Assembly: GCF_021272345.1 (NCBI RefSeq)
Contig: NZ_JAJSDQ010000004.1
Span: 248,001 to 312,000, forward strand
Length of the DNA stretch: 64,000 nucleotides
Direction of reading: 5' to 3'
From: Ornithinimicrobium sediminis
GTDB taxonomy: Bacteria; Actinomycetota; Actinomycetes; Actinomycetales; Dermatophilaceae
The notes under the pieces are model-generated. The model was not told the origin of the DNA, did no database searches, and saw nothing but the letters and a program-made list of their open reading frames with translations. Made by a program: the position numbers and the translations under genes. Shown here piece after piece: positions 24,948-48,190 of the stretch. The first letter of the stretch is position 1. Every line of letters begins with the position of its first letter.

Positions 24948-25020
24948 GTCCCCATCGTCTAGCGGCCTAGGACTCCGCCCTTTCACGGCGGCAACACGGG
25001 TTCGAATCCCGTTGGGGATG
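24948..25020 (+). tRNA. tRNA-Glu (TTC)
   Basis: 73-nt cloverleaf. Acceptor arms GTCCCCA and TGGGGAT pair with a terminal G-U. The anticodon stem CCGCC/GGCGG encloses loop CTTTCAC, anticodon TTC. The T loop is GGTTCGAATCC. CCA is not encoded. Confidence 0.95.
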
Positions 25021-25071
25021 CTGGTGTGCAGCGATGCATGTCCGGTATGTAGTACACGTTTGGCCTACCAA

Positions 25072-25145
25072 GGCCCCGTGGCGCAGTTGGTTAGCGCGCC
25101 GCCCTGTCACGGCGGAGGTCGCGGGTTCGAGTCCCGTCGGGGTCG
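25072..25145 (+). tRNA. tRNA-Asp (GTC)
   Basis: 74-nt cloverleaf with acceptor arms GGCCCCG/CGGGGTC, the same CCGCC/GGCGG anticodon stem as the tRNA-Glu upstream, loop CTGTCAC and anticodon GTC. The T arm contains GGTTCGAGTCC. CCA is not encoded. Confidence 0.95.
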
Positions 25146-25152
25146 CAGTGCA

Positions 25153-25190
25153 CGCCGCTGCTTCGCACCATCAGGTGCGGAGCAGCGGTG
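25153..25190 (+). terminator. long hairpin between tRNA-Asp and tRNA-Phe
   Basis: About 17 base pairs (25153-25169 with 25174-25190) closed by an ATCA tetraloop, with two G-U pairs. It has no T-tract. It could be a terminator after tRNA-Asp or a processing signal within one transcript. Confidence 0.55.
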
Positions 25191-25202
25191 CGACCACTAC
25201 CC

Positions 25203-25276
25203 GGCCAGGTAGCTCAGTTGGTACGAGCGTCCGACTGAAAATCGGAAGGTCGGCGGTTCGACCCCGCCCCTGGCCA
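25203..25276 (+). tRNA. tRNA-Phe (GAA)
   Basis: 74-nt cloverleaf with acceptor arms GGCCAGG/CCTGGCC, anticodon stem TCCGA/TCGGA, loop CTGAAAA and anticodon GAA. A CCA triplet follows directly at 25277-25279, so the 3' end is encoded here but not in the two tRNAs upstream. Confidence 0.95.
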
Positions 25277-45346: not shown

Positions 45347-45375
45347 TTGACTTCGGCCAGCTCGGGGTGTTACAC
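45347..45375 (+). promoter_or_regulatory. metYX promoter
   Basis: TTGACT (45347-45352), a 17-nt spacer and TTACAC (45370-45375) lie about 15 nt before the SAM-IV aptamer, so transcription would start just upstream of the riboswitch. Confidence 0.65.
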
Positions 45376-45388
45376 ATTTCCCAGCATG

Positions 45389-45507
45389 AGGTCATGAGTC
45401 CCAGCCGAAGGCCCCGGCCGGCTGGGCGGCAACCCTCCACTCGCGGTGGGGTGCCCCGGGTGATGACCAGGTGCCCGTCCTCGCGGCCGGGCACAAGCGC
45501 GGGCTTC
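45389..45507 (+). ncRNA. SAM-IV riboswitch
   Basis: The sequence matches the SAM-IV pattern recalled from Streptomyces: GGTCATGAG at the start (45390), GGCGGCAACCCTCC in the core, GGTGGGGTGCCCCGGGTGATGACC closing the first helix (its ATGACC at 45463-45468 pairs with GGTCAT), then a GTGCCCG/CGGGCAC hairpin and the AAGCGCGGG pseudoknot strand. It senses S-adenosylmethionine and represses methionine genes. Position upstream of metY agrees. The expression platform is not obvious; a 216-nt leader follows. Confidence 0.93.
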
Positions 45508-45551
45508 TCAGCCGAGGGGCCCAGCCGACGCCGACCATCAGGAGCGCCGCT

Positions 45552-45578
45552 GTGACCCGTCGAATGTGTCGCTGCTGA
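45552..45578 (+). CDS. short uORF with Cys codons in metY leader
   Basis: Eight codons, GTG start, MTRRMCRC then TGA, preceded by AGGAG with ideal 7-nt spacing. It lies between the SAM-IV riboswitch and metY, 144 nt before metY. Two of the last three codons are Cys. Cys-rich short ORFs are known attenuating leaders of sulfur genes in mycobacteria; a similar Cys-sensing role here is inference. An internal ATG would give only MCRC. Confidence 0.6.
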   Translation: MTRRMCRC

Positions 45579-45722
45579 GCCCACTCGCAGCCACCCGTCG
45601 CGCCGACGACGCCTGCAGCCGCCCCGGGGCACCCCCGCGCGCGACGCCTTGACGTCCCGGCTGCGGACCCGGCAGGCACCCTCCCCCTTCCACCTCCCCC
45701 GCAGACACCTGGAGCACAACCC

Positions 45723-47033
45723 ATGAGCTGGTCCTTCGCCACCCGTCAGATCCACGCCGGCCAGAGCCCCGACAGCGCCACCGGCGCACGCGCACTGCCG
45801 ATCTACCAGAGCACGTCGTTCGTCTTCGAGGACGCCGACCAGGCGGCCAACCGCTTCGCCCTGGCCGAGCTCGGCCCGATCTACACCCGCATCGGCAACC
45901 CCACCAACGAGGTGGTCGAGGCCCGCATCGCCGACCTCGAGGGTGGCGTCGGCGGGCTGCTGGTCGCCTCCGGGCAGTCGGCCGTCACGCTCTCCCTGCT
46001 CAACGTGGCCGAGGCAGGGGACCACATCGTCGCCTCCCCCAGCCTCTACGGCGGCACGCAGAACCTCTTCGAGCACACCCTGCCCAAGCTCGGCATCCAG
46101 GTGACCTTCGTCGACGACCCCGCCGACCCCCGGTCGTGGCGTGCCGCGACGACCGAGCGCACCAAGGCCTTCTTCGGCGAGACGCTGGCCAACCCCAGCA
46201 GCGACGTCCTCGACATCACCGCCGTCGCCGAGGTCGCGCACGAGGTCGGCGTGCCGCTGATCGTGGACAACACCGTGCCCACGCCCTACCTGTGCCGCCC
46301 GATCGAGCACGGCGCCGACATCGTGGTGCACTCCGCGACCAAGTTCCTCGGTGGTCACGGCACGGCCATCGGCGGCGTCATCGTGGACAGCGGCAACTTC
46401 GACTTCGCCCAGCACCCGGAGCGGTTCCCGGGCTTCAACACCCCGGACGCGAGCTACCACGGGCTGGTCTACGCCCGTGACCTCGGGGTGGGCGGCGCGC
46501 TGGGCGCCAACCTCGCCTACGTCCTCAAGGCGCGCGTCCAGCTGCTGCGCGACCTCGGCCCGGCCGCCGCGCCGTTCAACGCCTTCCTCATCGCCCAGGG
46601 CCTGGAGACGCTCTCGCTGCGGATCGAGCGGCACGTCGCCAACGCCGAGGCGGTCGCCGGCTGGCTGCTCGAGCACGCGCAGGTGCAGTCGGTGTCGTAT
46701 GCCGGGCTGCCGGGTCACCCGTCCCACGCCCGCGCCCAGCGCTACCTGCCCGCGGGCGCCGGAGCGGTGCTGGCCTTCGAGATCGACGGCGGCGCCGACG
46801 CGGGGCGCCGTTTCGTCTCCGCGCTGCAGCTGCACTCCCACGTGGCCAACATCGGCGACGTCCGGTCGCTGGTCATCCACCCTGCCTCGACCACGCACTC
46901 CCAGCTCAGCGAGAGCGCACAGCGGGCGGCCGGCGTGACCCCGGGCCTGGTCAGGCTGTCGGTGGGCCTGGAGCACGTCGACGACATCATCGCCGACCTG
47001 GAGGCCGGCTTCATCGCCGCCAAGGGCGCCTGA
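45723..47033 (+). CDS. metY: O-acetylhomoserine sulfhydrylase
   Basis: 436-aa PLP enzyme of the Cys/Met metabolism family, making homocysteine from O-acetylhomoserine and sulfide. PLP Lys207 lies in HSATKFLGGHGT. Other family marks are YTRIGNPTNEVVE, ASGQSAVTLSLL, DNTVPTPYLCRPIEHGAD (core DNTVPTP) and SSTTHSQ-like IHPASTTHSQL. Length (about 430) fits MetY rather than the shorter MetB/MetC. A Gly/Ala-ending tail completes the protein. Under SAM-IV riboswitch control; metX starts on its last base. Confidence 0.95.
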   Translation: MSWSFATRQIHAGQSPDSATGARALPIYQSTSFVFEDADQAANRFALAELGPIYTRIGNPTNEVVEARIADLEGGVGGLLVASGQSAVTLSLLNVAEAGDHIVASPSLYGGTQNLFEHTLPKLGIQVTFVDDPADPRSWRAATTERTKAFFGETLANPSSDVLDITAVAEVAHEVGVPLIVDNTVPTPYLCRPIEHGADIVVHSATKFLGGHGTAIGGVIVDSGNFDFAQHPERFPGFNTPDASYHGLVYARDLGVGGALGANLAYVLKARVQLLRDLGPAAAPFNAFLIAQGLETLSLRIERHVANAEAVAGWLLEHAQVQSVSYAGLPGHPSHARAQRYLPAGAGAVLAFEIDGGADAGRRFVSALQLHSHVANIGDVRSLVIHPASTTHSQLSESAQRAAGVTPGLVRLSVGLEHVDDIIADLEAGFIAAKGA

Positions 47034-48190
47034 TGGCCGAGCCGGCCCGACTCCTGGAGGGACCCGCCTCGCGTCTGTGCTCAGTGGTGGTGGGCAGCCT
47101 GGACACCGACGGTGGCGAGCACCTGCCCGAGGTCAGGATGTCCGTCCAGACGTGGGGCCGGCTCAACGAGGCGGGCGACAACGCGGTGCTGGTGCTGCAC
47201 GCCCTCACCGGCGACCCCCATGTCGTCGGTGAGGCGGGACCGGGACAACCGACCCCCGGGTGGTGGCCGGGGCTCATCGGGCCGGGCTGCCCGCTGGACA
47301 CCGAGGAGCTGTTCGTCGTGGCCCCCAACGTGCTCGGTGGGTGCCGCGGCAGCACCGGGCCGAGCACGCCGGCCGCCGACGGGCGGCCCTACGGGTCCAG
47401 CTTCCCCGTCCTCACCATCCGCGACCAGGTGCGCGCGGAGGCCGCGCTGGCCGACGCGCTCGGCATCCGCTCCTTCGCCGCGGTGGTCGGCGGCTCGATG
47501 GGCGGCATGCGCGCGCTCGAGTGGGCGGTGTCCTACCCAGGGCGGGTCCGCCGCTGCCTGGCCCTGGCCACGTGTGCGGTCGCGACGGCCGACCAGATCG
47601 CGTGGGCCACCCCCCAGCTGCACGCCATCCGCGGCGACGCAGGGTTCGCCGGTGGCGACTACTACCCGGGGCCGGGGCCGCGGGCGGGCCTGGAGGTCGC
47701 CCGCATGATCGCGCACACGACCTACCGTGCGGCCGAGGAGCTCCAGGACCGCTTCGGACCCGCACCCCAGCTGGGCGAGGAGCCCCTGCGGGGCGGACGG
47801 TATGCCGTGCAGTCCTACCTGCAGCACCACGGCCGCAAGCTGGTCCGCCGCTTCGACGCCAACTCCTACCTGGTGCTGACCGAGGCGATGAACAGCCACG
47901 ACATCGGCCGGGGCCGCGGCGGCGTCGAGGCGGCCCTTCGCCGCATCACCGCAGAGCTCACGGTGGCCGTCGTGGACAGCGACCGGCTCTTCACGCCCGC
48001 CGACGGTGCCGTCATCGCCCAGGCGCCGGCCTGCCGTGAGCTGGCGACGATCCACTCCCCCTACGGCCACGACGCCTTCCTCATCGAGACCGAGCAGGTC
48101 TTCGACGTCATCAGCCGGGCGCTGCAGGCCACTCCCCCGGCGGTGCGCGCCGCCACTCCCCGCAGCCTGCGACCCTCCGGTCTCTGGTGA
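47033..48190 (+). CDS. metX: homoserine O-acetyltransferase
   Basis: 385-aa alpha/beta-hydrolase-fold acyltransferase that activates homoserine for metY. Nucleophile Ser155 in VVGGSMGGM; Asp in VVDSDRLFTP; His in SPYGHDAFLIE. The substrate region NVLGGCRGSTGPS and the AVQSYLQHHGRKLVRRFDANSYL segment (core FDANSYL) are diagnostic. Start ATG overlaps the metY stop by one base (TGATG), so it is translationally coupled and shares the riboswitch. Acetyl versus succinyl donor cannot be fully settled from motifs; acetyl is usual in this phylum. Confidence 0.95.
   Translation: MAEPARLLEGPASRLCSVVVGSLDTDGGEHLPEVRMSVQTWGRLNEAGDNAVLVLHALTGDPHVVGEAGPGQPTPGWWPGLIGPGCPLDTEELFVVAPNVLGGCRGSTGPSTPAADGRPYGSSFPVLTIRDQVRAEAALADALGIRSFAAVVGGSMGGMRALEWAVSYPGRVRRCLALATCAVATADQIAWATPQLHAIRGDAGFAGGDYYPGPGPRAGLEVARMIAHTTYRAAEELQDRFGPAPQLGEEPLRGGRYAVQSYLQHHGRKLVRRFDANSYLVLTEAMNSHDIGRGRGGVEAALRRITAELTVAVVDSDRLFTPADGAVIAQAPACRELATIHSPYGHDAFLIETEQVFDVISRALQATPPAVRAATPRSLRPSGLW

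Follow-up and report, generated by a model that had tools for sequence, protein, structure and literature searches.

In Mycobacterium tuberculosis, expression of PPE2 requires a translated leader ORF that is itself controlled by a B12 riboswitch, according to the available portion of the report concerned (PMC11260477). Leader peptides containing cysteine have been predicted before actinobacterial cys operons, where terminators were not found and regulation was considered to be possibly Rho-dependent; the accessible sections of the same work report no conserved RNA structure upstream of methionine operons, and cite the tna operon as a model (PMC1262725). Translation attenuation of cysteine genes in M. 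smegmatis is cited (Canestrari 2020) in the available text of PMC13236596, and other uORF motifs are described in the accessible part of PMC8632094. For Streptomyces lividans, the available sections of PMC8079986 list both SAM-IV and metL, make no mention of a uORF after SAM-IV, and present metL, which lies before metNIQ, as a leaderless ORF of 28-29 residues that is called methionine-dependent on sequence grounds. A tandem of SAM-IV and leader ORF was undescribed among the literature matches listed, subscription papers lying mostly outside the search, and the accessible part of a tandem-riboswitch review (PMC9481103) describes no SAM-IV/uORF tandem.

Architecture of the metYX leader

The leader examined here precedes metY and metX within a 64,000-nt stretch of Ornithinimicrobium sediminis DNA, referred to throughout as the window. 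Its features are listed below in window coordinates.

45347-45376, + strand: promoter-like element, TTGACT and TACACA separated by 18 nt (predicted, from a consensus match only)
45390-45505, + strand: SAM-IV riboswitch aptamer (RF00634, 109.8 bits, E 2.3e-19, model positions 1-116 of 116)
45501-45522, + strand: linker hairpin of nine pairs, GGGCUUCUC (45501-45509) with GAGGGGCCC (45514-45522)
45540-45544, + strand: Shine-Dalgarno site AGGAG of the uORF, read from the sequence and kept in the SAM-IV clade of the genus
45552-45578, + strand: uORF, GTG to TGA, encoding MTRRMCRC, read from the sequence; frame, start and stop are kept in relatives
45561-45566, + strand: fixed codon pair CGA-ATG (Arg-Met) of the uORF, from codon-usage comparison
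45571-45591, + strand: hairpin across the uORF stop codon, GCUGC(U)GAG with CUCGCAGC, from the window fold
45579-45710, + strand: C-rich, G-poor spacer (53% C, 26% G), a candidate Rho-loading stretch
45723-47033, + strand: metY, O-acetylhomoserine/O-acetylserine sulfhydrylase (NF005872, 729.5 bits, cut-off 703)
47033-48190, + strand: metX, homoserine O-acetyltransferase (NF047917, 488.6 bits, cut-off 475)

The original prediction, made from the sequence alone, placed a SAM-IV aptamer ahead of metY, and this was recovered over the full length of the RF00634 model, for which the gathering score is 38; it is also the single SAM-IV match in the genome at an E-value of 0.001. The sequence similarly bears out the eight-codon ORF that was said to lie about 45 nt past the aptamer, with AGGAG at a spacing of 7 nt and with Cys at two of its last three sense codons. 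Its codons read GTG ACC CGT CGA ATG TGT CGC TGC TGA, the stop occupying 45576-45578, with 46 nt between the aptamer end and the start codon and 144 nt between the stop and the metY start. The 5' strand of the linker hairpin overlaps the 3' end of the aptamer. The uORF-core pattern CGAATGYGYHGCYG has one match in the genome, namely the uORF of the window. Elsewhere in the window, three tRNA genes stand in a row at 24948-25276.

Conservation of the uORF within the genus

Orthologues of metY were sought in 31 genomes of the genus set, which appears from its sequences to include both Ornithinimicrobium and Serinicoccus; genome G005 gave no match, and 29 orthologue leaders together with that of G009, obtained via locus L019, provided 30 metY leaders. 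SAM-IV followed by the uORF is present in 10 of the 30, with the peptides MTRRMCRC (the window), MTCRMCSR, MTRRMCGC, MTCCRMPSR and MTCCRMPNR. When these ten leaders were aligned, mean identity between the Shine-Dalgarno site and the uORF stop was 86%, as opposed to 44% in the spacer between the uORF stop and the metY Shine-Dalgarno site, so that the uORF is kept while the remainder drifts, a check that had been proposed alongside the original prediction. Identity reaches 97% between the Shine-Dalgarno site and the second codon and 100% across CGAATG, and the eight- and nine-codon forms of the uORF differ in length by exactly one codon. The uORF is more than a chance ORF.

Conservation of the Cys codons had been expected too, and here the comparison went the other way: each of the 28 genus uORFs that were read contains at least one Cys, but at differing positions, the residues standing before Arg-Met in MTCCRMPNR and after it in MTRRMCRC, while MNHHRMRR and the 16 Streptomyces-type uORFs described below have none. 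Two of the 12 genus SAM-IV metY leaders lack the uORF, these being from genomes G020 (loci L014/L119) and G009 (L019). At a further locus, L013, CGAATG is out of frame with the GTG led by its Shine-Dalgarno site, and the stop of the GTG frame lies across the start of metY; the cause may be either a fault in the assembly or a change to translational coupling.

Retention of the uORF without the aptamer

The uORF is kept in the absence of SAM-IV, as judged by a whole-genome search with stricter filters, in 18 of the 30 genus genomes whose metY leader could be read, and its persistence there indicates that it is retained independently of the aptamer. In these 18 genomes, TTGACTTCG precedes the ATG that opens ORFs of the MTSRSRRMRRC type. 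Of 20 leaderless rows, which include two duplicates, 19 have their ATG 29-32 nt past the end of the -35 hexamer (at L133 the earlier in-frame ATG was taken, and the second ATG fits), and TAGAAC, TAGAC or TACAAC lies as a -10-like element between the two in 18 of the 20 rows, L126 and L127 being the exceptions. On the basis of this promoter spacing, the uORF of the 18 genomes is apparently leaderless. A pattern resembling the leaderless start gave two matches in 58 genomes.

Comparison of the 20 leaderless and 11 SAM-IV leaders revealed that the block GCATTGACTTCG is common to the window, where it lies before the aptamer, and to the leaders of the leaderless clade. Among the 11 SAM-IV leaders, TTGACTTC occurs in four (L111, L112, L113 and L119) and TTGACC in five; at L117 and L123 the script returned no -35 match, and TTGAAC and TTGACG are readable there. 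Since promoter blocks are shared, the aptamer, linker and Shine-Dalgarno site of the one clade occupy the place of the leaderless start in the other. The two groups form sister clades with starred support in the metY tree, in which the label 'U' denotes CGAATG at -260 to -100, and the presence of SAM-IV with a uORF in other families hints at loss of the aptamer. Counts of the label outside the genus were left unused, being misleading at L064 and at L043/L046; at L064 (Brevibacterium) CGAATG looks like a chance occurrence, there being no Shine-Dalgarno-led start in its frame.

SAM-IV loci beyond the genus

SAM-IV matches fell at 137 distinct places, of which 116 were oriented and read; the 20 lowest-scoring rows, and G008:C23, the leader of which was read as L116, make up the remainder. 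Of the 116 loci, 51 have a short ORF as their first led ORF when the Shine-Dalgarno rule is strict; when it is relaxed, the first ORF is short (4-50 codons) at 56, long or open at 56 and absent at four. The median distance from the aptamer to the uORF start is 37.5 nt (range 9-84, n=56), the same as for main genes that come first (n=56), whereas at uORF loci the main gene, found in 45 of the 56, starts at a median of 177 nt past the aptamer. The equal medians, with the main gene displaced, indicate that the uORF fills the place where the riboswitch otherwise meets the gene.

Three kinds of uORF follow SAM-IV. The CGA-AUG kind comprises Micrococcales-type metY leaders and 16 Streptomyces-type loci, the latter encoding MSKRMR (12 loci), MNQRMR (two), MSQRMR (one) and MSKRMS (one), with no Cys and one internal Met. 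The gene behind these is assigned as class V aminotransferase-like on the strength of its sequence and of the S. lividans table given in the available text of PMC8079986, and the same accessible text, through its metL-type peptide and SAM-IV gene, provides the grounds for the label 'Streptomyces-type', which we infer from likeness of sequence. The Cys-rich kind was found at L022, L028, L147, L180 and L229. The RRHxDLxR...C kind follows SAM-IV at six loci, four of which (L020, L179, L198 and L226) were scanned, all matching NF042934, 'putative leader peptide'; the same scan gave no match for L022, L028 or the metL-type peptide, and a Pfam scan of six peptides gave none.

A number of individual leaders are also recorded here. 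Loci L022, L180, L194 and L195 correspond to two sites (G008:C58:218252-218561 and G010:C1:1759719-1760030), each with a pair of SAM-IV aptamers back to back on opposite strands and less than 100 nt apart, and the short ORF after one aptamer of each pair contains at least seven Cys. The genes behind these aptamers are presumably LLM-class flavin monooxygenases, which they resemble. A metY leader labelled Streptomyces sp. SID13031 (L052) carries a further short Cys uORF, MTECCCR*, with no SAM-IV by motif check. The metY leaders of three actinobacterial MAGs (L043, L046 and L051) likewise have no SAM-IV by motif check, and encode a longer leader peptide with VASQMC and, later, Arg-Met-Pro, that of L051 matching NF042934. 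At L049, a SAM-IV-like leader of metY that was missed by the motif check is followed by ATG CTC TGT TGT CGG (MLCCRNTHR*), again a short ORF with Cys-Cys.

Codon content of the uORFs

The codon content of 40 unique uORF peptides was compared with that of 329 control ORFs from the loci concerned, sampled in 2000 length-matched draws. The peptides contain 67 Cys, against a mean of 18.9 expected (maximum 36), and 31 Met, against a mean of 13.4 (maximum 29), a comparison in which related peptides are not independent. When the same uORFs are read in shifted frames, the +1 frame holds 50 Cys and the +2 frame 14, as against the 67 in frame.

CGAATG occurs no more than 100 nt after 31 of the 116 aptamers, as opposed to 15 of 1680 control windows, although the 31 loci are not independent since they consist of 14 metY leaders, the 16 Streptomyces-type loci and L028. 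It is in frame with a Shine-Dalgarno-led start at all of these except L013 (30 of 31: 29 by script and L002, where the script picked up a CGAATG at the start codon itself, by reading; L206 lists an additional out-of-frame candidate start). Within the 56 short ORFs, the Arg of Arg-Met is encoded by CGA in 31 of 32 pairs, whereas of 2166 Arg codons counted as background in the downstream genes 8.3% are CGA. The pattern AGCGAATGCGNTAG is present in 29 of 31 Streptomyces-type genus genomes, its reversed control giving one match, and of the 30 matches read out of 32, 28 are preceded by an aptamer that is SAM-IV-like in a motif check. The metL-type peptide R-M-C-A-F was found in seven of the 31 genomes, with CGA-ATG-TGY in all seven copies, and an earlier Arg-Met pair in L230 uses CGT; the metL pattern C-M-C-R-R-M-C, which proved too strict, gave no match in 41 genomes.

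Retention of CGA-AUG across uORF types indicates that the rare codon CGA is favoured before AUG, while Cys codons come and go. Decoding by I-A wobble is poor, and CGA may accordingly delay decoding of the codon that follows, sharpening a one-codon Met sensor. The idea of a dual sulfur sensor, as first put forward for this leader, therefore stands in part. That the leader takes two sulfur inputs is a fair inference because the uORF is conserved and Cys codons are enriched after SAM-IV, but cysteine as the conserved input does not hold, and with CGA-AUG as the fixed element, methionine, or slow decoding of CGA-AUG, is no worse a candidate than cysteine for the second input.

RNA structure and the C-rich spacer

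A hairpin in the linker after the aptamer is supported by 14 leaders, where 95.9% of cells are paired, compared with 31-67% in slid controls, and the covariation score of 0.282, against 0.151 for shuffled alignments, was equalled by none of 500 shuffles; pairs changed on both sides number three, which 79 of 500 shuffles reached. The equivalent helix of the Streptomyces-type leaders is paired in 97.5% of cells with little variation (142 of 500 shuffles as high). An anti-Shine-Dalgarno helix of CCUCG with CGAGG, sought in the Streptomyces-type leaders, was paired in 86% of cells with no covariation and is not established.

The uORF-stop hairpin is seen in the window fold. An unusually stable fold of the window leader was considered and rejected (z 0.12 and, for the 150-nt stretch enclosing this hairpin, -0.83 against shuffles); two leaderless leaders fold with z of -2.39 and -1.95. 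In the 18 leaderless leaders, the pairing of the stop-codon hairpin (S1:S2) is present in 97.9% of cells with no covariation, and the stop-codon strand alternatively pairs with GGGCUCAGCAG some 100 columns downstream (S1:S4; 98.5% of cells), with one pair changed on both sides in two sequences and a covariation score reached by 12 of 500 shuffles. The helices S2:S3 (84%) and S3:S4 (81%) form in most rows only, with no covariation. S1:S2 and S1:S4, as exclusive pairings of the strand that would lie under a terminating ribosome, resemble an attenuator in the leaderless clade; the long-range S1:S4 helix was not seen in the window, and no terminator was noticed by eye in the leaders.

The C/G ratio of the spacer at 45579-45710 is 2.06, a value reached by three of 3194 overlapping windows of equal size on the + strand, probably including the site itself, and by 11 on the - strand. 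The ratio is at least 1.6 in seven of eight leaders, that of L113 being 1.49.

A proposed serial leader and its alternatives

The aptamer, the conserved uORF, the independence of the two modules and the codon bias could be accommodated in a two-stage leader in which SAM-IV gates the uORF, the uORF senses sulfur codons and Rho decides whether metYX is transcribed, a reading to which we assign a probability of about 0.4. SAM-IV would open or close the first ribosome-binding site downstream of it, which belongs to the uORF, and not the metY site some 170 nt further on, high SAM leaving the uORF site closed. A ribosome that enters would decode CGA-AUG-Cys just ahead of the stop, and scarcity of charged Met- or Cys-tRNA would cause it to pause atop the stop-codon hairpin, beside the C-rich spacer. 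The paused ribosome would then shield the spacer from Rho, in a manner similar to that of tnaC, and metYX would be transcribed; with no ribosome present (high SAM), or with its quick release (sufficient sulfur amino acids), Rho would end the transcript. The predicted outcome is an AND gate that responds to low SAM together with slow decoding of sulfur codons. Counted in its favour are the uORF's conservation next to a drifting spacer, its position at the distance from the aptamer that a main gene otherwise has, its retention where SAM-IV is missing, the enrichment of Cys and Met, the fixed CGA-AUG that recurs in metL-type peptides, the NF042934 matches after SAM-IV and the C-rich spacer. This serial gate is weakened because an anti-Shine-Dalgarno helix for the uORF is not established. 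Also counted against it are the two of 12 genus SAM-IV leaders without a uORF, the 56 of 116 SAM-IV loci in which a long or open ORF comes first, the Streptomyces-type uORFs with no Cys and a single internal Met, the out-of-frame L013, the Cys-rich +1 frame, the kinship of the peptides, leader folds that are no better than shuffles, and the lack of a long-range S1:S4 helix in the window fold.

A simpler arrangement, in which scarce cysteine stalls the ribosome at the two Cys codons and metYX is induced, would draw on the presence of at least one Cys in each of the 28 genus uORFs, on Cys being the strongest enrichment in SAM-IV uORFs, on the poly-Cys and NF042934-type leader peptides that follow SAM-IV elsewhere, and on the predicted Cys leader peptides of Actinobacteria described in the available text of PMC1262725. 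Nevertheless, cysteine alone is the weaker signal, since CGA-AUG is kept in MNHHRMRR and in the 16 Streptomyces-type uORFs, none of which has Cys, and the Cys positions move, such that a cysteine-only attenuator seems unlikely. The extreme shortness of the uORF and its single Met codon could equally suit an ORF that senses nothing, serving as a landing site by which ribosomes cover the leader or are positioned, with CGA as a fixed pause and SAM as the sole regulator; the riboswitch-controlled uORF required for PPE2 expression offers a precedent in the accessible part of PMC11260477. Enrichment of both Cys and Met, and retention of the uORF in a clade without the riboswitch, render this improbable.

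The remaining alternatives concern the core itself. Conservation of CGAAUG as an RNA word, for binding of protein or RNA or for pairing, rather than for its codons, would explain why six nucleotides are fixed and why the rare CGA is used instead of CGC. However, the word is in frame with a Shine-Dalgarno-led start in all but one of the 31 SAM-IV loci, the metY and Streptomyces-type leaders have a stop a few codons further on, the distance from the word to the start in the leaderless clade is a multiple of three (only in-frame starts having been sought there), and no complementary partner was seen by eye; an RNA word is accordingly a distinctly unlikely explanation. A +X+ motif closes peptides such as MSKRMR and MTCRMRR, and R-L-R leader peptides are mentioned in the available portion of PMC8632094, both of which would fit arrest of the ribosome by a nascent peptide of Arg-Met-Arg type, triggered by SAM, methionine or a drug. 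Yet the residue after Met varies (R, C or P) and the bias towards CGA is unexplained by the peptide, and arrest of this nature appears very unlikely. The R-L-R peptides of macrolide leaders stall the ribosome.

The CGA-AUG core suggests a very small codon-level sensor. Tentatively, and with some doubt, mini-ORFs that end in CGA-AUG may constitute a distinct modular class of actinobacterial regulatory uORF in which a slow, inosine-decoded CGA before AUG makes a one-codon sensor of methionine supply. It is similarly conceivable, if doubtful, that this module is placed behind SAM-IV at Streptomyces-type and Micrococcales-type loci, used leaderless as in Serinicoccus-type metY, or set at the end of longer peptides as in metL ahead of metNIQ. 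Were this so, SAM-IV in front of the module would make a natural AND gate with SAM and methionine as its inputs, joined by cysteine in metYX leaders, and both the gated and the ungated form would occur in a single genus. Such mini-ORFs are easily missed in annotation because many are of 6-12 codons. If many SAM-IV riboswitches meet a leader ORF first, they would represent the front half of a two-signal circuit as opposed to a simple on/off switch, and a genus with and without the aptamer before the same kind of uORF would allow the two inputs to be separated by comparison and experiment.

Comparison with known leaders

Set against the SAM-IV riboswitch (RF00634), the window aptamer scores over the whole model, but the first gene-like element after it is the eight-codon uORF and not metY. 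The likeness to the B12-uORF-ppe2 arrangement lies in a riboswitch-controlled leader ORF that decides expression of the downstream gene, a role that is predicted here; there is overlap between the ppe2 uORF and its gene, with termination-reinitiation as the main mode of action, according to the available text of PMC11260477, whereas the uORF of the window stops 144 nt short of metY and has a conserved Arg-Met core. Cys leader peptides (of cys operons, as described in the accessible part of PMC1262725, and of NF042934/NF042936) are comparable in being short ORFs with Cys codons before sulfur genes, with Rho proposed to act. The window peptide differs from these in following a SAM riboswitch and in its fixed CGA-AUG core, and has eight residues compared with the 20 needed for the NF042934/Ms4527A profile scan. 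With metL of S. lividans, as presented in the available sections of PMC8079986, it has in common a C-terminal R-M-C and a methionine gene, but it is far shorter (eight versus 28-29 residues), and metL is given there as leaderless. The resemblance to tnaC would be one of proposed logic only, in that a ribosome paused at the end of a leader ORF may shield a Rho site. In E. coli, tnaC acts through nascent-peptide arrest on tryptophan, and it is in this arrest, a feature of tnaC for which no counterpart is shown in the window, that the two leaders differ.
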